This document shows positions 12,558-21,757 of a stretch of 64,000 bases of DNA, one piece after another. The notes under the pieces are model-generated. The model saw only the letters and a list, made by a program, of their open reading frames with translations, ran no database searches and had not been told where the DNA came from. The position numbers were made by a program, and so were the translations under genes. Source of the stretch: Pseudomonas sp. BN411 (GTDB lineage Bacteria; Pseudomonadota; Gammaproteobacteria; Pseudomonadales; Pseudomonadaceae); NCBI RefSeq assembly GCF_029871235.1, contig NZ_SSOM01000065.1, forward strand, positions 1 through 64,000, written 5' to 3'. How positions within the stretch are numbered: position 1 is the first letter of the stretch; the number at the start of each line of letters is the position of its first letter.

Positions 12558-13874
12558 TCAGTAGCTGTAGCGCGCCAGGGCCTCGGGCAGCGCCCAGACA
12601 GCGGCACCGCCCAACAGGGCCAGGCAGGCCGGCAGTACCACCAACCAGATACGCGGCGCCATTGCAGTGAGTGGTGCGGCACGCTGCATCAGCGCCAGGC
12701 CCGCCGCTGCGATGCCACCCGCCAGCAGGGCGCCGGCGAGGATGTCGGTGGGCCAGTGCACGCCGAGGTAAACCCGCGATAGCGCGATGGCCAGGGCCGG
12801 CAGGCAAGCCAGCAGCAGCCAGGTCAGGCGCAGGCGTCCTGGCTGCCCGCGACCGGCAAGAATCCCCAGTACCAGGAAGAAGGCGAAGGCCGCCGAGCTG
12901 TGCCCGCTGGGGAAGCTGAACGTGGTCAGGGGCTCGGCGAGCACTTCTGGCCGCGCCCGCGCGAAGAGCTGCTTGAGTCCGGTATTGGCCAGCGCGGTCG
13001 CCACCAGGGTGCCGATGGCGAAGCAGGCGGGGCGCCACTGGCGCAGCAGCAACAGCAGACCGCCGAGCAGGGCGCCGGCGAGGAGCTGGGTCGTGAAGTC
13101 GCCTAGGCGGGTGACCAGCACCATCAACTGGTCGAGGCTGGCGTGGCGCTGTTCCTGAACCAGCGCCATCAGGCCCTGGTCCAGAGCCTGAAGGTGCGGC
13201 CAGCCAACCAGCAGGGCGCCCAGCGCTATCAGGCTCAGGCCTGCCGCCAACGGGTTGGCCCAGCGTTTCTCACGTAGCGTGCTGTGGACGATCAGGCCGA
13301 GCATGGCCACCACCGTCACGATCACCACCCCGGCTTCGCCCCAGAAACCTTCCGGCAGCGGCAGGCGCAAGGCAGCACCGGTGGCCCAGCCGGGTACCAG
13401 GTAGGCCACGGCCCAGCCGGCGGCGGCCAGCATGCTTACGGCGACAAAACGCGGGAAGGGCATGTCCAGCATGCCGGCGACCATCGGCAGCATGGGCCGC
13501 AGCGGGCCGATGTAGCGGCCCACCAGCAGGCTGGCGACGCCATAGCGCTGGAAGTAGTTCTCGGCGCCGCTGATCCATTCCGGGTGGTCCCGCAGCAGTG
13601 GCAGGTTGCGGATGTTCTGGTGGAAGCGACGGCCCAGGCCGTAGGAGATCATGTCGCCCAGCAGTCCGCCGGTGTAGGCCAGCAGCAGGGTTTCCCAGAG
13701 CTCCAGCGCGCCGCTGCCGGCCATCACGCCAACGGCGAACAGCAGGGCGACGCCCGGTACCACGATGCCGGCGATGGCCAGGCATTCGATGCAGGCGATC
13801 AGGAAGATGGCCAGGCCCAGCCATTCCGGATTGGCGCCGAGCCAGGCGGTGACCTGGTCGAACCATTGACTCAT
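12558..13874 (-). CDS. DedA-PAP2 fusion membrane protein
   Basis: A 438-residue fusion. Residues about 1-200 are a DedA/SNARE-associated domain (GLLGDMISYGLGRRF and the FxRFG-type ENYFQRYGVASLLVGRYIGPLRPMLPMVAG). The C-terminal part is a type 2 phosphatidate phosphatase with all three motifs: KQLFARARP, FPSGHSSAAFAFF and SRVYLGVHWPTDILAG. It therefore probably combines lipid transport and dephosphorylation, for example of undecaprenyl pyrophosphate, in the inner membrane. The start at 13874 overlaps the upstream glycosylase stop by four bases. Confidence 0.93.
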   Translation of the reverse strand: MSQWFDQVTAWLGANPEWLGLAIFLIACIECLAIAGIVVPGVALLFAVGVMAGSGALELWETLLLAYTGGLLGDMISYGLGRRFHQNIRNLPLLRDHPEWISGAENYFQRYGVASLLVGRYIGPLRPMLPMVAGMLDMPFPRFVAVSMLAAAGWAVAYLVPGWATGAALRLPLPEGFWGEAGVVIVTVVAMLGLIVHSTLREKRWANPLAAGLSLIALGALLVGWPHLQALDQGLMALVQEQRHASLDQLMVLVTRLGDFTTQLLAGALLGGLLLLLRQWRPACFAIGTLVATALANTGLKQLFARARPEVLAEPLTTFSFPSGHSSAAFAFFLVLGILAGRGQPGRLRLTWLLLACLPALAIALSRVYLGVHWPTDILAGALLAGGIAAAGLALMQRAAPLTAMAPRIWLVVLPACLALLGGAAVWALPEALARYSY

Positions 13875-14581
13875 GGGTGAATGTCCTCGATCAGCGTGAA
13901 GTCGCGTCCTTCGACTTGCCCGCGGCGCAACGGATTGCGCGTGCAGTGGCGGGCGTAGGCGGCGTCGACGAAGCGGTAGGGCAGGTGTTCGTCGCGGCCG
14001 TGGGGAATTCCCAGGCGCGCGGTCTGGATGATGGTGGCGGGGCGCTCGTCGACGTCTTCGACGAACAGGCGCTGCCAGTCGAAGCGCTGACCGTCCCAGT
14101 CGGGCACCTTGAGGCCGAGGGAGCGGCACAGCAGGGTCTGGCCAGCGCAGAGGCGTTCGGCCGGGCGCGGCCCGCCCTGGGCGTCGGGGTTGTTGCCTTG
14201 CATGGCGGCCAGCGCGTCGGTGGGGGAGATGTCGTCCACCCAGGGGTGGCCGGACTTGATCAGTACTGCGTTACCGGCCCCGTGGGCGCTGAAGTTGAGC
14301 GAGTCGCCGCCCCGGGCGTAGTACATATAGATGTGCCCACCATCGAGAAAGAGTGCGCGGCGCTTGTGGGTGTAACCGAGGGAAGCATGGCTGCCCTTGT
14401 CCACCAGGTAGTAGGCCTCGGTCTCGATGATGCGCGCGGACAGCCAGCGACCGTCGACCCGGTGGCGGATGACCTTGCCCAGCAGCTCGCGGGCCACTTG
14501 CTGGGCGTCGCGGTCGAAAAAGGCATCGGTCAGCGGGCGGGCACCAGGCCAGGGCAAACTAAGGATGGGATCGCAGGACAT
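13871..14581 (-). CDS. DNA-3-methyladenine glycosylase (AAG/MPG type)
   Basis: A 236-residue alkyladenine-DNA glycosylase of the eukaryotic AAG/MPG fold, a base-excision repair enzyme. Visible blocks are FFDRDAQQVARELLGKVI, the catalytic-glutamate segment ARIIETEAYYLVDKGSHAS, IYMYYARGGDSLNFSAHG and AVLIKSGHPW. It is somewhat longer than the bacterial average of about 200 residues. It overlaps the DedA-PAP2 gene by four bases (coupled) and is divergent from the methyltransferase gene. Confidence 0.92.
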   Translation of the reverse strand: MSCDPILSLPWPGARPLTDAFFDRDAQQVARELLGKVIRHRVDGRWLSARIIETEAYYLVDKGSHASLGYTHKRRALFLDGGHIYMYYARGGDSLNFSAHGAGNAVLIKSGHPWVDDISPTDALAAMQGNNPDAQGGPRPAERLCAGQTLLCRSLGLKVPDWDGQRFDWQRLFVEDVDERPATIIQTARLGIPHGRDEHLPYRFVDAAYARHCTRNPLRRGQVEGRDFTLIEDIHP

Positions 14582-14696: not shown

Positions 14697-15542
14697 ATGT
14701 CCCGAGCCGCCCGCGTCGACAGTGCCCACATCACCCCCAGTGCGCACTACACCGGTTATGTCTGGTATCGCCACCAGCTCGCCGAGGAGCCCTTCGTCAC
14801 CCCCTTCGGACGCTTCGCCCACGGCGTGCTGGCGCCGGTCAGTTGGGGCGCGCGCGTGGCCTTTGGCCTGGATGTGGAGCGCTTCCTGCTGCAGCGCCAC
14901 CTGCTGATCGACGCCCTGTTACGCGAGGCCATCGAACAGCGCGGGGTGCGCCAGGTGGTGGAAATCGCTTGCGGCCTGTCGCCTCGGGGGCGGCGTTTCT
15001 GTTCCCGTTACCCGCAATTGCGCTACCTGGAAGCCGACCTGCCGCCCATGGCCGCGCGCAAGCGGCTGCTGCTGCATGAAGAGGGCTGGCTGAATGCGCG
15101 GCATCAGGTTCGTCCTGTGGATATCCTCGCCGAGCAGTGCACGAACGACCTGCAGGCACTGTTCTCCGGGCTGGACCGGGAAGAGCCGGTGCTGGTGATC
15201 ACCGAAGGGCTGGTGAACTACTTCGAGCTACCGGTAATAGAAGGCTTCTGGGCTCGCCTTGCGGCGCAATTGCGCCAATTCCCGTCCGCCACCTACCTCA
15301 CTGATCTCTATCCCGACCTGCGCGAGCACCCGCGCTACCGGCAATTGCGCTGGGGCATTGACCTCGTGGGCCGATTGACCCGTGGCCGCTATTACCTGCA
15401 CTACCGGGGCGACGACGCCATTGTCGCGGGCTTCGAAGGTTGCGGCTTCGGCGAAGTCCGGGTGCATGACCCGAAGGAGTTGGAGGCAGCGCCGGCGGAT
15501 GCCTGGCCGGCGCTGGTGCGGGTGGTGGAGGGGAGGATCTGA
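14697..15542 (+). CDS. Class I SAM-dependent methyltransferase, LCMT-like
   Basis: A 281-residue protein of the leucine carboxyl-methyltransferase/PpmA-like family. The SAM-binding motif I appears as VVEIACGLSPRGRRF (about residues 81-95), and YLEADLPPMAARKRLLL and VLVITEGLVNYFELP correspond to later SAM-fold motifs. The family in bacteria often acts on small molecules or polyketides; the substrate here is unknown. It stands alone on the plus strand between two minus-strand genes. Confidence 0.83.
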   Translation: MSRAARVDSAHITPSAHYTGYVWYRHQLAEEPFVTPFGRFAHGVLAPVSWGARVAFGLDVERFLLQRHLLIDALLREAIEQRGVRQVVEIACGLSPRGRRFCSRYPQLRYLEADLPPMAARKRLLLHEEGWLNARHQVRPVDILAEQCTNDLQALFSGLDREEPVLVITEGLVNYFELPVIEGFWARLAAQLRQFPSATYLTDLYPDLREHPRYRQLRWGIDLVGRLTRGRYYLHYRGDDAIVAGFEGCGFGEVRVHDPKELEAAPADAWPALVRVVEGRI

Positions 15543-15583: not shown

Positions 15584-16813
15584 TCAGGCGCAGGACAGAG
15601 CGCGGGTTTCCGTCTGGACCACCTGCGCCGCCAGCGCCTCACTGGCCGCCGCGTCGGTATGGGGGAAGACCAGCGCCAGGCTGTCGCCGTCGTGGCGCAG
15701 CGCGAGTACATCCAGTGCTGGCAAGTCGCCTGCCTGTAGGCGCCAGCCTCGGGATGGCAGGTCGGCCGGCAGCGCGCCCTGCACCAGGCCGCCGAAGAAT
15801 CCCAGTTCGCTGACATCCACCGACCATTCGCCCGCTTCAGCGTGCAGCAGCCGGCCTCGTCGGTTCAGCGGGGCCACGCGCGGTTCCTGGCGCCGCTCCA
15901 GGCGGTCCAGGCGATTGCGTGCCAGACGCGTGGCACCGGGGCTGGCCAGGGGCAGGGCGGTGCCCTGGAGGAAGGGCCGATAGAAGCTGGCGCAGGCTTC
16001 GCGCTGCTCGAACTGGGCCAGGTGATCGCCGTTGTGGATAAGCGCGCAATCGGCATCGGCACAGGCGGCGGCGAAGCCCGCGTGCTCCCAGGGCTGGGTG
16101 AAATGGTCGTATTCGCCGGCCAGGACCAGGGTCGGGCAGGTCGGATGACGGGTGAATCCCGGGAAGTCGAGCAAGCGGCGGCTATTTTGCAGGTATCGCT
16201 CGACTTCTTGCGGGGAAAGTCGCTGCATCTGTCGCAGAAGTGCCTTGCGAAAGATCAGCGAGACGCCGGTTTCGTCCAGGCGCAGGGGATTGATCAGTCC
16301 GGTCAGGGCGCCCTGGGCGAAGCGCAGGACCTGGCCCTCAGCCAGCAGGTCCAGGCCTTCCTCCAGCATGCGCCGGGCGCCGGGGCGGCCGAAGGCGGTG
16401 ATCCCGGCCAGCAGCAGGCGTGCGCAGCGCTGCGGGTGGCGTACGGCGAACAGGGCCGCCAGGGCCGAGCCGTAGGACAGGCCGATGGGCATCAACGGTG
16501 GCAGGCGGAACTCTTCGGCGAACGCGGCGATCAGGTCGGCCAGCTGTTCGAGCGAGAGCTCAGGCGCCAGTTGCAGGTTTGCGCCCTGGCTTGGCAGGTC
16601 GAGGAGGATCACCGGGTGGTGGGGCAGCAGTTCCTGCACCTCCGCGCCGAATGAGCGAAAGCTCTGGAAGGCACCACCTAGCATCAGGACCGGCTCGCGA
16701 TTGTCCTCGGCGTGTCGGGAGAATGCCTGGTAATGCAGGGTCCAGGCGCCGAGCTGGACGACGCGGGGCGCATCGTTCAGGTGCTGTGGGGCGAAGTCGG
16801 TCTGGTAACGCAT
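15584..16813 (-). CDS. Alpha/beta hydrolase with a C-terminal PilZ-like domain
   Basis: A 409-residue protein. Residues about 40-285 are an alpha/beta hydrolase: nucleophile elbow GLSYGS (Ser113), acid in GEYDHFT (Asp236), His in NGDHLAQF (His264). The last 100 residues are not hydrolase. They contain RQEPR (Arg308-Arg312) and, 21 residues on, DVSELG (Asp333, Ser335, Gly338), matching the RxxxR and (D/N)xSxxG motifs of PilZ c-di-GMP receptors. The inference is a hydrolase whose activity or location responds to c-di-GMP. The ATG at 16813 has GGAG upstream; extending the frame to 16888 is not needed. Confidence 0.82.
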   Translation of the reverse strand: MRYQTDFAPQHLNDAPRVVQLGAWTLHYQAFSRHAEDNREPVLMLGGAFQSFRSFGAEVQELLPHHPVILLDLPSQGANLQLAPELSLEQLADLIAAFAEEFRLPPLMPIGLSYGSALAALFAVRHPQRCARLLLAGITAFGRPGARRMLEEGLDLLAEGQVLRFAQGALTGLINPLRLDETGVSLIFRKALLRQMQRLSPQEVERYLQNSRRLLDFPGFTRHPTCPTLVLAGEYDHFTQPWEHAGFAAACADADCALIHNGDHLAQFEQREACASFYRPFLQGTALPLASPGATRLARNRLDRLERRQEPRVAPLNRRGRLLHAEAGEWSVDVSELGFFGGLVQGALPADLPSRGWRLQAGDLPALDVLALRHDGDSLALVFPHTDAAASEALAAQVVQTETRALSCA

Positions 16814-17083: not shown

Positions 17084-18349
17084 ATGACCGAGTCCGTTCT
17101 CGATTACATGACCCGCCTTGGCCGCGCCGCTCGCGCCGCCTCGCGCGTGGCCGCCCGTGCCAGCACCGCGCAGAAGAACCGCGCCCTGCTGGCTGCCGCC
17201 GATGCCCTGGACGCAGCTCGTGCCGAGCTGACCGCCGCCAACGAGCAGGACCTGGCCAATGGCCGGGCCAATGGCCTGGAGCCAGCCATGCTCGATCGCC
17301 TGGCGCTGACCCCAGCGCGCATCGACGACATGATCGAGGGCCTGCGTCAGGTCGCCACCCTGCCGGACCCCATCGGCGAAATCCGCGACATGCGCTACCT
17401 GCCGTCCGGTATCCAGGTGGGCAAGATGCGCGTGCCGCTGGGCGTGATCGGCATCATCTACGAGTCGCGGCCGAACGTGACCATCGATGCAGCCAGCCTC
17501 TGCCTGAAATCCGGCAACGCCACCATCCTGCGTGGCGGTTCCGAGGCTATTCATTCCAATCAGGCCATCGCCGCCTGCATCCAGAAGGGCCTGTCCGACG
17601 CCGGCCTGCCCAGCGAACTGGTGCAAGTGGTGGAAACCACCGACCGCGCCGCCGTGGGTGCGCTGATCAGCATGCCGGAGTATGTGGACGTGATCGTCCC
17701 GCGCGGTGGCAAGGGCCTGATCGAACGCATCAGCCGCGAAGCCAAGGTGCCGGTGATCAAGCACCTGGACGGCATCTGCCACGTCTATATCGACGTCGCC
17801 GCCGATCTGGACAAGGCGATCCGCGTGGCAGACAACGCCAAGACACAGCGTTACGCGCCCTGCAACACCATGGAAACCCTGCTGGTGCACGAGGGCATTG
17901 CCGCTCGTGTACTGCCGCCGCTGGCCGCCATCTACCGCGACAAGGGCGTAGAACTGCGCGGCGACGCCGCTACCCGTGCCCTGCTGGGCGCCGATGTGCT
18001 GGAGGCGACCGAAGAAGACTGGCGCACCGAGTACAACGCGCCGATCCTCTCGATCCGCATCGTCGACGGCCTGGAACAGGCCATCGAGCACATCAACGCC
18101 TACGGCTCGCAGCACACCGACGCCATCATCACCGAGAACTTCAGTGATGCGCGGCGTTTCCTCACCGAAGTGGATTCCGCCTCGGTGATGGTCAATGCCT
18201 CGACCCGCTTCGCCGATGGCTTTGAATACGGCCTTGGGGCGGAGATCGGCATTTCCACCGACAAGCTGCACGCCCGCGGCCCAGTCGGTCTGGAAGGCCT
18301 GACCAGCGAGAAGTACGTGGTCTTCGGCGACGGTCACGTACGTACCTGA
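17084..18349 (+). CDS. proA: Glutamate-5-semialdehyde dehydrogenase (gamma-glutamyl phosphate reductase)
   Basis: A 421-residue NADPH-dependent enzyme of proline biosynthesis that reduces gamma-glutamyl phosphate. The aldehyde-dehydrogenase fold is shown by [18 protein letters not shown] and [14 protein letters not shown], and the catalytic cysteine is in [45 protein letters not shown] is the usual ProA end. It heads a tightly packed run: its last stop base is the first base of nadD (TGATG). Confidence 0.97.
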
Positions 18350-18993
18350 TGGGCAAGCGCATCGGCCTCTTCGGCGGCACCTTCGATCCCGTGCATATCG
18401 GCCACTTGCGAGGTGCCCTCGAGGTGGCCGAGCAGTTCGGCTTCGATGAGCTGCGCCTGATCCCCAGCGCGCGCCCGCCGCACCGCGAAACCCCGCGGGT
18501 TTCGGCGGCTCAGCGTCTGGAAATGGTGCAACTGGCGGTGGCCGGAGTTGCGCCGCTGATGGTGGACGATCGCGAACTCAAGCGCGAGCGGCCGTCCTGG
18601 ACCATCGAAACGCTGGAGTCCCTGCGGACCGAGCTGGATGCCGATGACCAGTTGTTCCTGCTGGTCGGCTGGGACGCTTTCTGCGGCCTGCCGAGCTGGC
18701 ACCGCTGGAGCGAGCTGCTGGACCATTGCCACATCCTGGTCCTGCAGCGTCCGGATGCCGACAGCGAGGCACCGGAAGACCTGCGCGATCTGTTGGCGGC
18801 GCGCAGCGCGGTCGATCCGCAATCGCTGCAGGGGCCGTCCGGGCAGATTGCTTTCGTCTGGCAGACGCCCCTGGCGATTTCCGCCACCCAGATCCGCCAA
18901 TTGCTGGGGGAGGGGCGCTCGGTGCGCTTTCTCGTGCCCGATGCCGTATTGGCCTATATCCATGCGCACGATCTGTACCGTGCGCCGAACTGA
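18349..18993 (+). CDS. nadD: Nicotinate-nucleotide adenylyltransferase
   Basis: A 214-residue nucleotidyltransferase that adenylates nicotinate mononucleotide in NAD synthesis. It has the [14 protein letters not shown] nucleotide-binding block at the N-terminus and [10 protein letters not shown] (ISxTxxR motif) near the C-terminus. The start codon shares its A with the proA stop. The downstream ribosomal silencing factor gene follows after 22 bases, a neighbourhood widely conserved in bacteria. Confidence 0.97.
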
Positions 18994-19015
18994 TTCACTG
19001 AGGTAGTTGAACCCG

Positions 19016-19369
19016 ATGCAAAACGAAGAACTCGTCAAGGTCGCCATCGCGGCCCTGGAAGACCTGAAAGGTCAGGAAATCACCACCATCGACGTACGTG
19101 GCAAGACCAGCATCACCGATTTCATGGTGATCGCCAGCGGCACCTCCAGCCGTCACGTCAAGTCCCTGGCCGAGAACGTTCTGGAAAAGACCAAGGAACA
19201 AGGCGTGCGCGCCCTGGGCAGCGAAGGCCTGGACGGTGGCGAGTGGGCCCTGCTGGACCTGGGCGATGTGGTGGTGCATGTGATGCAGGTCGCCACCCGC
19301 CAGTTCTATGACCTGGAGCGCCTGTGGCAAGGCGCCGAGCAGAGCCGCGCGCACCACAGCCACGAGTAA
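19016..19369 (+). CDS. rsfS: Ribosomal silencing factor RsfS (Iojap family)
   Basis: A 117-residue RsfS/Iojap protein that binds ribosomal protein uL14 on the 50S subunit and blocks subunit joining. The family pattern [30 protein letters not shown] is followed by [18 protein letters not shown]. The ATG at 19016 has GAGG about 12 bases upstream; a TTG at 19007 would add three residues and is too close to that site. It belongs to the nadD-rsfS-rlmH group. Confidence 0.95.
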
Positions 19370-19381
19370 GCGGGGCTTCCC

Positions 19382-19849
19382 TTGCGTCTACGTCTGATCG
19401 CCGTTGGCACTCGGATGCCGCGTTGGGTGGAAGAGGGCTGGCACGAGTACGTCAAGCGCCTGCCTTCCGAGCTCAGCCTGGAACTGGTGGAAATTCCCCT
19501 GACCACGCGCGGCAAGAACGCCGACGTGGCGCGGATGATCCGCCAGGAGGGCGAGGCCATGCTGGCCAAGGTCCAGCCGGGGGAACGCATCGTCACCCTG
19601 GAAGTCCAAGGTCGGCCCTGGAGCACCGAGCAACTGGCGGCCGAACTGGACCGCTGGCGCCTGGATTCGCGCACCGTCAACCTCATGGTCGGTGGCCCGG
19701 AAGGGCTGGCGCCGGAGGTCTGTGCCCGTAGCGAGCAGCGCTGGTCGCTGTCGCCTCTGACGCTGCCACACCCGTTGGTCCGCATCCTCATTGGCGAACA
19801 GATCTACCGCGCCTGGACGGTGTTGTCCGGCCACCCCTACCACAAGTAA
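19382..19849 (+). CDS. rlmH: 23S rRNA pseudouridine1915 N3-methyltransferase
   Basis: A 155-residue SPOUT-class methyltransferase acting on the A-site pseudouridine of helix 69 in 23S rRNA. The deep trefoil-knot SAM site is seen as [14 protein letters not shown], and the end [32 protein letters not shown] is the RlmH C-terminus. The start codon is TTG (19382): it gives the family length of 155 residues and the usual N-terminus [13 protein letters not shown], and no ATG in this frame would keep that conserved start. Confidence 0.96.
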
Positions 19850-19858
19850 GCCCCGTCC

Positions 19859-21757
19859 ATGCCGCAACCGATTCGCCTCAAAGATCACGAGAAGGACGCC
19901 CGTCTGGTACGCCGGCGCGTGATCGTGGGCGCGGCAGCGGTGTTGATGCTGACCTGCGTGCTGATCGCCCGCCTCTATTACCTGCAGGTGATCCAGTACG
20001 ACTACCACTCGACCCTGTCCGAGAACAATCGCGTCCATGTGCAGCCGATTCCGCCCACCCGAGGGCTGATCTTTGACCGCAATGGCGTGATCATTGCCGA
20101 CAACCGGCCCAGCTTCAGCCTGAGCGTGACCCGCGAGCGCGCCGGCGACTGGGAGCAGACCCTCGATGTGATAGTCGAAGTGCTGCAGCTGACTCCCGAT
20201 GATCGTGCGTTGTTCGAAAAACGCATGAAACAGGGGCGGCGCCCGTTCGAGCCAGTGCCCATCCTCTTCGAGCTGACCGAGGAGCAGATCGCCCGCATCG
20301 CGGTGAACCAGTTCCGCCTGCCCGGCGTCGAGGTGGTGGCACAGCTGGTGCGGCACTATCCGCAGGGCGCGCATTTCGCCCATTCCGTGGGTTATGTCGG
20401 CCGGATCAACGAGAAGGAACTCAAGCAGCTCGATCCGGTTAACTACAGCGGCACCCATCACATCGGCAAGACCGGTATCGAGCGCTTCTACGAAGACCAG
20501 TTGCACGGCGAGGTGGGTTACGAGGAAGTCGAGACCAACGCCCGTGGCCGCGTATTGCGTGTGCTCAAACGTACCGACCCGAAACCCGGCAAGGATCTGG
20601 TGCTGACCCTCGACGTGCGCTTGCAGGAGGCCGCCGAACAGGCCCTGGCCGGCCGTCGTGGTGCCATCGTCGCTATCGAGCCGTCCAGCGGTGATGTGCT
20701 GGCCATGGTCAGTCAGCCGAGCTTCGACCCCAACCCCTTCGTTACCGGCATCAGCTTCAAGGCCTATGCCGAGCTGCGCGATTCCATCGACCGGCCGCTG
20801 TACAACCGCGTATTGCGCGGCCTGTATCCGCCGGGTTCGACCATCAAACCGATGGTGGCCGTGTCCGGCCTGGATTCCGGTGTGGTGACGCCGGCCTCGC
20901 GGGTCTTCGATCCCGGCTTCTACCAACTACCCAATTACGATCACAAGTACCGCAACTGGAACCGTTCCGGTGACGGCTGGGTGAACATGGAAACCGCGAT
21001 CATGCGGTCAAATGACACCTACTTCTACGATCTTGCCCACAAGATGGGCATTGATCGTCTTCATGACTACATGAGCCGCTTCGGCTTCGGTCAGCGCGTG
21101 GCCCTGGACATGTTCGAGGAGTCCTCCGGACTGATGCCGTCTCGCGAGTGGAAGCGCGCGCGCTACCGTCAGGCCTGGTTCCCGGGGGAAACGCTGATCC
21201 TCGGTATCGGCCAGGGCTACATGCAGGCCACCCCGCTGCAACTCGCCCAGGCGGTTGCGCTCATGGCCAACCGTGGCAAGTGGATTCGCCCGCACCTGGC
21301 CAAGACCATCGAAGGCCAGCCGCCGCTGGACCCGAACCCGATGCCGGACATCGTCCTGCGTGACCCGAAATACTGGGATGCGGGCCGTAACGGCATGGAG
21401 CAGGTGGTCCACGGTGCCCGGGGTACGGCGCACAAGGTCGGTGCGAGCTCCGTCTACCGTATCGCCGGCAAGTCCGGTACCGCCCAGGTGGTGGCCATCA
21501 AGCAGGGCGAGAAGTACGACCGCTCAAAAGTGCAGGAGCGCCACCGTGACCATGCCCTGTTCGTCGCCTTCGCCCCGGCGGAAGACCCGAAGATCGCCGT
21601 AGCGGTGATGGTGGAGAACGGCGAATCCGGTTCGGGCGTTGCCGCGCCGGTGGTCAAGCAGGTCATGGATGCCTGGCTGCTCGGTGAAGACGGCCAGCTG
21701 AAACCCGAGTTCCGACCGCCGCAGCCGCTGGCGGAACAGCAGAGCGCCAATCGATGA
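19859..21757 (+). CDS. mrdA: Penicillin-binding protein 2 (elongasome transpeptidase)
   Basis: A 632-residue class B penicillin-binding protein that cross-links lateral-wall peptidoglycan. It has a short cytoplasmic N-terminus, one membrane segment at residues about 21-42 and a pedestal domain. The transpeptidase domain shows SxxK in PPGSTIKPM (Ser about 327), SND in MRSNDTYFYDL and KSGT in AGKSGTAQV. The name pbpA is also used in Pseudomonas. It overlaps rodA by four bases (ATGA), consistent with production of the PBP2-RodA pair in equal amounts. Confidence 0.97.
   Translation: MPQPIRLKDHEKDARLVRRRVIVGAAAVLMLTCVLIARLYYLQVIQYDYHSTLSENNRVHVQPIPPTRGLIFDRNGVIIADNRPSFSLSVTRERAGDWEQTLDVIVEVLQLTPDDRALFEKRMKQGRRPFEPVPILFELTEEQIARIAVNQFRLPGVEVVAQLVRHYPQGAHFAHSVGYVGRINEKELKQLDPVNYSGTHHIGKTGIERFYEDQLHGEVGYEEVETNARGRVLRVLKRTDPKPGKDLVLTLDVRLQEAAEQALAGRRGAIVAIEPSSGDVLAMVSQPSFDPNPFVTGISFKAYAELRDSIDRPLYNRVLRGLYPPGSTIKPMVAVSGLDSGVVTPASRVFDPGFYQLPNYDHKYRNWNRSGDGWVNMETAIMRSNDTYFYDLAHKMGIDRLHDYMSRFGFGQRVALDMFEESSGLMPSREWKRARYRQAWFPGETLILGIGQGYMQATPLQLAQAVALMANRGKWIRPHLAKTIEGQPPLDPNPMPDIVLRDPKYWDAGRNGMEQVVHGARGTAHKVGASSVYRIAGKSGTAQVVAIKQGEKYDRSKVQERHRDHALFVAFAPAEDPKIAVAVMVENGESGSGVAAPVVKQVMDAWLLGEDGQLKPEFRPPQPLAEQQSANR

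Follow-up and report, generated by a model that had tools for sequence, protein, structure and literature searches.

The question raised by the gene at 15584-16813 is whether a hydrolase encoded there carries a receptor for the second messenger cyclic di-GMP (c-di-GMP) at its C-terminus, and what such a domain would do. The gene lies in a 64,000-nucleotide stretch of Pseudomonas sp. BN411 (contig NZ_SSOM01000065.1), here called the window. A first-pass annotation had claimed an alpha/beta hydrolase fused to a PilZ-like tail, and that claim is supported by profile comparison, a predicted model and fold search. On these grounds the tail is a predicted PilZ-type domain that is hidden from Pfam; judged by its motif, the protein is not a canonical c-di-GMP receptor. 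The parts of the protein are as follows.

15584..16813, minus strand: open reading frame of 409 residues, alpha/beta hydrolase with a C-terminal PilZ-fold domain (stop codon at 15584-15586; full-length orthologues exist)
15959..16765, minus strand: alpha/beta hydrolase domain, residues 17-285
16475..16477, minus strand: Ser113, nucleophile within GLSYG
16106..16108, minus strand: Asp236 of the triad, within GEYDHF
16022..16024, minus strand: His264 of the triad, within GDHLAQFE
15590..15910, minus strand: PilZ-fold domain, residues 302-408, comprising an RxxxR loop, six strands and a C-terminal helix (profile comparison, predicted model, fold search)

The frame starts with ATG and translates without internal stops, and M1 is unchanged in all 29 rows of alignment A1. 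The protein has the fold, the GxSxG elbow and the Ser-Asp-His triad that define Abhydrolase_1. The triad proposed at first pass is intact, with each of the three residues kept in 57/57 distinct rows from the window's own family and in 18/18 rows from other families. The 57 rows were reduced from 67 (the window, L009-L045 and L047-L075); L076-L081 stand outside this count. Among the rows are Atopomonas L045, two metagenome-assembled genomes titled only Gammaproteobacteria (L037 and L040), and L042, which matches from residue 64 onwards and appears in none of the other alignments. The 18 other-family rows of alignments A2 and A3 come from 24 loci (L082-L105), leaving out L087, L088 and L096 (close to kept rows), L101 (an unread residue), L103 (truncated) and L105, a relative of 282 residues that has no tail. 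Motif counts describe fetched loci and not every one of the 47 own-family genomes with the gene. A further alignment, A4, holds 13 PilZ domains hand-picked from motif-pattern output on 36 PilZ loci, a choice that favours canonical domains.

Searches with the full-length model by Foldseek and VIA-align gave hydrolase-fold entries only among the best 50 rows, and in VIA-align those rows covered the model to residue 289 at most. The esterases and enol-lactonases among them (4q3l MGS-M2, 2xua, 4uhc, 3om8), and RhlA (8ik2), resemble the window protein in the hydrolase domain, triad and nucleophile elbow, but no title among the best 50 VIA-align rows mentions a PilZ tail. Such lists arise because one domain fills them, and the tail was therefore folded separately. 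PilZ structures head the match lists for this separate model in both programs. The predicted structure has strands at 319-324, 328-337, 341-345, 357-361, 367-375 and 378-382 and a helix at 388-408, that is, the six-stranded beta-barrel followed by an alpha-helix of the PilZ superfamily. Comparing the predicted C-terminal structure with PilZ had been proposed as a check at first pass, and the PilZ fold is what was found. Additionally, hhalign of the tail profile against PilZ gave a probability of 94.3 and a score of 47.1, whereas none of 200 shuffles scored above 15.7.

Several searches weigh against a PilZ tail. Pfam and NCBIfam scans of the whole protein and of the tail found no PilZ, and a Pfam scan of 34 homologues at E up to 1 found it in 0/34, which is taken as the detection limit of single-sequence scans. 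A genome-wide search with PF07238 found 10 other places, the hydrolase tail not being among them, and the tail profile had no match among PDB sequences at E up to 10. These results alone would reject a PilZ tail, but they are overturned by the profile-profile comparison and the fold search. It could still be argued, from the absence of PilZ in the Pfam and NCBIfam scans, that this is an ordinary alpha/beta hydrolase whose likeness to PilZ arose by chance and whose tail is some other small barrel. However, hhalign with its shuffle controls and the fold search both indicate PilZ, and the predicted structure contradicts this explanation, which can hardly be right.

The fold leaves the binding site to be considered, and here the first-pass annotation stands in part. 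It had named two PilZ motifs, RQEPR and DVSELG; the first holds and the second is out of register.

15878..15892, minus strand: RQEPR, residues 308-312, RxxxR motif (R308 in 57/57 and R312 in 56/57 own-family rows; both in 18/18 rows of other families)
15800..15817, minus strand: DVSELG, residues 333-338, second motif of the first-pass annotation, out of register
15791..15808, minus strand: ELGFFG, residues 336-341, true second-motif position, reading ExGxxG (alignment with other families, hhalign, model)

The RxxxR motif lies in the loop before strand 1, as in canonical receptors, and E310 within it is kept in 57/57 own-family rows. RQEPR begins at 308 and DVSELG at 333. Counted from R312, D333 is 21 positions on, so that 20 residues separate the two motifs. 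D333 and S335 are rejected as the PilZ Asp and Ser, because D is found in 9/57 and S in 22/57 own-family rows and both lie within strand 2. The equivalents of the motif residues are instead E336, G338 and G341, which are kept in 56/57, 55/57 and 57/57 own-family rows. In the alignment with other families, E336-L-G338-F-F-G341 stands under D-I-N-F-F-G, D-V-S-F-F-G or N-I-N-F-A-G. The same register was obtained by hhalign against PilZ when the profile held nothing but own-family rows. In the model E336 is at the end of strand 2, G338 falls within the turn and strand 3 begins with G341. Loss of the Arg and Asp/Ser residues in orthologues had been named as evidence against the first proposal; the arginines are kept and the Asp/Ser pair is not, so that this objection half stands. 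The motif letters by themselves are suggestive of PilZ and not decisive, because shuffling the 124-residue tail 20000 times gave RxxxR followed by [DN]xSxxG 15-30 residues on in 113 cases.

Canonical receptors have [D/N]xSxxG at the turn between strands 2 and 3, where the window protein has ExGxxG. All 18 rows from other families read [DN]x[SN]xxG, with D or N at position 336 in 18/18, N (15) or S (3) at 338 and G at 341 in 18/18; an exact Ser is thus present in 3/18. Natural DxSxxG orthologues are of the L094/L097/L098 type. In a hydrolase-domain tree of 34 rows a single change accounts for ExGxxG (support 99/93), with Atopomonas just outside it; the placement of two long branches, L102 and L104, is unsure. 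According to PMC7288161, the arginines of PilZ contact the phosphate and base of c-di-GMP and the Asp, Ser and Gly contact the base and ribose. Taken with the motif counts across families and the tree, these contact roles suggest that the ancestral tail looked much like a c-di-GMP receptor and that the site, once half of it had changed in the Pseudomonas lineage, stayed near-fixed.

One reading of this alteration is that the PilZ domain has degenerated, the Pseudomonas tail being a protein-protein or dimerisation module that does not bind c-di-GMP, next to a constitutively active hydrolase. The replacement of [DN]xSxxG in one tree change would fit this, as would further departures, namely ExAxxG in L035, QxNxxG together with RxxxH in Atopomonas L045 (both inside the 57-row count) and AxGxxG in L081 (from genome G042). 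Divergence is also quicker in the tail than in the enzyme domain: L038, the orthologue from P. aeruginosa PA7, which has RxxxR and ExGxxG, is 45% identical to the window protein in the tail and 72% in the enzyme domain. Published work adds to the case, as PMC10333796 states that PilZ itself does not bind c-di-GMP and that binding can be missing in non-canonical PilZ domains. The same paper says that an enzyme's catalysis is influenced by a PilZ domain fused to it. The change from Asp/Asn and Ser/Asn to Glu and Gly, along with L035 and L081, may have abolished c-di-GMP binding and is a point against a working receptor. However, R308, R312, E310, E336, G338 and G341 are near-fixed (55-57/57), which would be unusual for an idle site. 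Degeneration is a reading to be taken seriously, and one we hold to be somewhat improbable. The pattern of change followed by fixation speaks for a working but altered site and does not identify the ligand; we rate c-di-GMP binding by Pseudomonas members as roughly as likely as not, or slightly less likely than that.

A first clue to function comes from the neighbouring gene.

14697..15542, plus strand: LCM-family methyltransferase (PF04072, Pfam E 3.6e-14), convergent neighbour and phylogenetic companion

The hydrolase is encoded together with an LCM-family methyltransferase, which lies downstream in opposite orientation in 71/73 own-family loci (L009-L081; these overlap, some genomes being represented more than once and the window's genome twice). 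One of the two exceptions has 299 bases of sequence and the other has no methyltransferase within 3 kb. Among 198 Pseudomonadaceae genomes, full-length matches to the hydrolase and the methyltransferase occur in the identical 47 genomes. In loci of other families a methyltransferase of 40-46% identity is found within 0.5 kb of the hydrolase in 6/23. Among 280 genomes outside the own family, 17 have both genes, 6 only the hydrolase and 22 only the methyltransferase when a full hydrolase match is required (Fisher p 4.6e-12, from counts that ignore the relatedness of genomes).

Some observations count against a functional link. The 6 hydrolase genomes with no methyltransferase match and the 22 methyltransferase genomes with no full hydrolase match are among them, though four of the former (G254, G257, G313 and G335) are assemblies that are 74-89% complete. 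Part of the link could also come from one-piece loss of neighbours: in G086, of the window's own genus (L170, G086:C12:91500-103000), proA and the DedA-like gene are in place with a 48-residue methyltransferase remnant between them and no hydrolase. Because adjacent genes can be lost together, more weight is given to cases in which they are separated. All 8 genomes of family f38, and G412, keep both genes but have them on separate contigs or at distant places of the same contig, and no hydrolase was found in about 10 kb around the methyltransferase in these nine genomes. The pairing is real and is not obligatory.

Three further arrangements were seen around the methyltransferase. In all 8 genomes of f38 (L159, L160, L161, L165, L171-L174) it stands tail-to-tail with two tandem genes resembling a GGDEF pair; in the pair from L160, which was scanned with Pfam and read for motifs, a pattern for GG[DE]EF-like letters found none, and the pair is not counted as a sign that c-di-GMP is actively made. 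Likewise set aside was another alpha/beta hydrolase gene, seen next to the methyltransferase in G224 (L154, 3734-4888) and found by BLAST with that protein in 0/10 other methyltransferase loci of family f28. In family f20 the methyltransferase lies directly behind a xanthine/uracil permease-family gene on the same strand in 5/5 loci examined (L155, L164, L183, L184, L185; called by Pfam for two and by BLAST for three), none of which has a hydrolase match.

The pairing also bears on the possibility that the tail is a docking site for the methyltransferase, as MapZ is for CheR1, with c-di-GMP controlling the complex. The best fold matches of the tail include MapZ-CheR1 chains (5xly, and 5y4r under the bare title 'a methyltransferase complex'), tied with other PilZ structures, and nearly all own-family loci have the methyltransferase as convergent neighbour. 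However, LCM and CheR enzymes belong to different methyltransferase families, and four other families have the hydrolase-PilZ protein with no methyltransferase match. We consider docking quite unlikely.

The best explanation, to which we give an even chance, is a serine alpha/beta hydrolase whose PilZ-fold C-terminus is a regulatory, ligand-sensing domain and whose substrate is an ester related to the methyltransferase. The two domains, the triad, the RxxxR pair, the altered second motif and the methyltransferase co-occurrence are computed, and from these we infer ligand, gating and substrate. The RxxxR loop would be the place where the tail senses its ligand. For the ancestral protein that ligand would be c-di-GMP, bound with [DN]x[SN]xxG, and c-di-GMP is the first candidate ligand for members that retain that motif; in Pseudomonas, c-di-GMP or a related ligand may be bound differently through ExGxxG. 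Binding would then change access to, or the activity of, the hydrolase site. An ester is suggested as the natural substrate because of the methyltransferase companion; it may be a methyl ester related to the methyltransferase product in the same pathway, with one small molecule or protein carboxylate as the shared target of both gene products. A bolder and improbable version is a c-di-GMP-gated, reversible methyl-ester cycle, in which the LCM enzyme esterifies a protein or metabolite carboxylate and the PilZ-hydrolase reverses this on binding or release of c-di-GMP, the Pseudomonas sensor having been retuned to ExGxxG. If true, this would be a third regulated methylation switch besides CheR/CheB and LCMT-1/PME-1.

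The other flank of the hydrolase gene indicates its age.

17084..18349, plus strand: proA by eye, the neighbour on the divergent side and a syntenic marker that other families retain

The hydrolase gene and proA diverge in 70/73 own-family loci, the remaining three having <200 bases of upstream sequence, and in 13/23 other-family loci, one of the rest having no upstream sequence. In 7/8 other-family proA loci fetched at greater length, genes matching window positions 18349-21754 follow (by eye nadD, rsfS, rlmH, mrdA); in the eighth the contig ends. This synteny is kept across families, and the hydrolase-proA unit is therefore old and mostly vertically inherited. In PAO1 the locus bears the names PA4008/PA4009. 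A class-wide search at E up to 1e-15 found the protein in 6/369 genomes, two of them of the own order (the window's genome and G231). The fusion looks mostly confined to its own order, although the search may have passed over weaker members. The window also has an open reading frame at 12558-14129 (minus strand), on the far side of the methyltransferase and of a glycosylase-like gene, that looks by eye like a fusion of a DedA protein with a PAP2 phosphatase and is perhaps PA4011 in PAO1.

The claim that the P. aeruginosa relative lies outside the commonly listed PilZ proteins agrees with the one full list consulted, since of the ten P. aeruginosa PilZ effectors in PMC12564702 none is given as a hydrolase. 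Eight P. aeruginosa PilZ proteins are counted in two papers (PMC10912698 and PMC2170427), one count being by Pfam search. No description of a PilZ-alpha/beta-hydrolase fusion was found among open-licence papers, mostly represented by titles and the starts of abstracts. The existence of a PilZ-fold enzyme that Pfam misses, kept next to proA across several of the order's families, implies that counts of P. aeruginosa PilZ proteins can fall short and that second-messenger control may extend to a hydrolase. The series DxSxxG, DxNxxG, NxNxxG, QxNxxG and ExGxxG within one protein family also offers a natural test of how far the second motif can erode in a PilZ domain that still binds.

Compared with known systems, the protein belongs among the enzyme-PilZ fusions, with an altered motif and, in the methyltransferase, a promising candidate partner. 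The P. aeruginosa receptors MapZ/PA4608 and PA0012, among the top Foldseek and VIA-align matches, share the order of RxxxR loop, six strands and C-terminal helix with the tail, but the PilZ domain of the window protein is fused to an enzyme, has ExGxxG and not [DN]xSxxG, and is 17-30% identical to them in the alignments of those programs. BcsA cellulose synthase, a membrane glycosyltransferase whose chains are also among the fold matches, likewise has PilZ C-terminal to a catalytic domain; the window protein, in contrast, is a serine hydrolase. The LCMT-1/PME-1 and CheR/CheB systems combine a carboxyl methyltransferase with an esterase, as the window pair, seen here as a gene pairing, may do. 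CheB is regulated through a receiver domain and not through PilZ.
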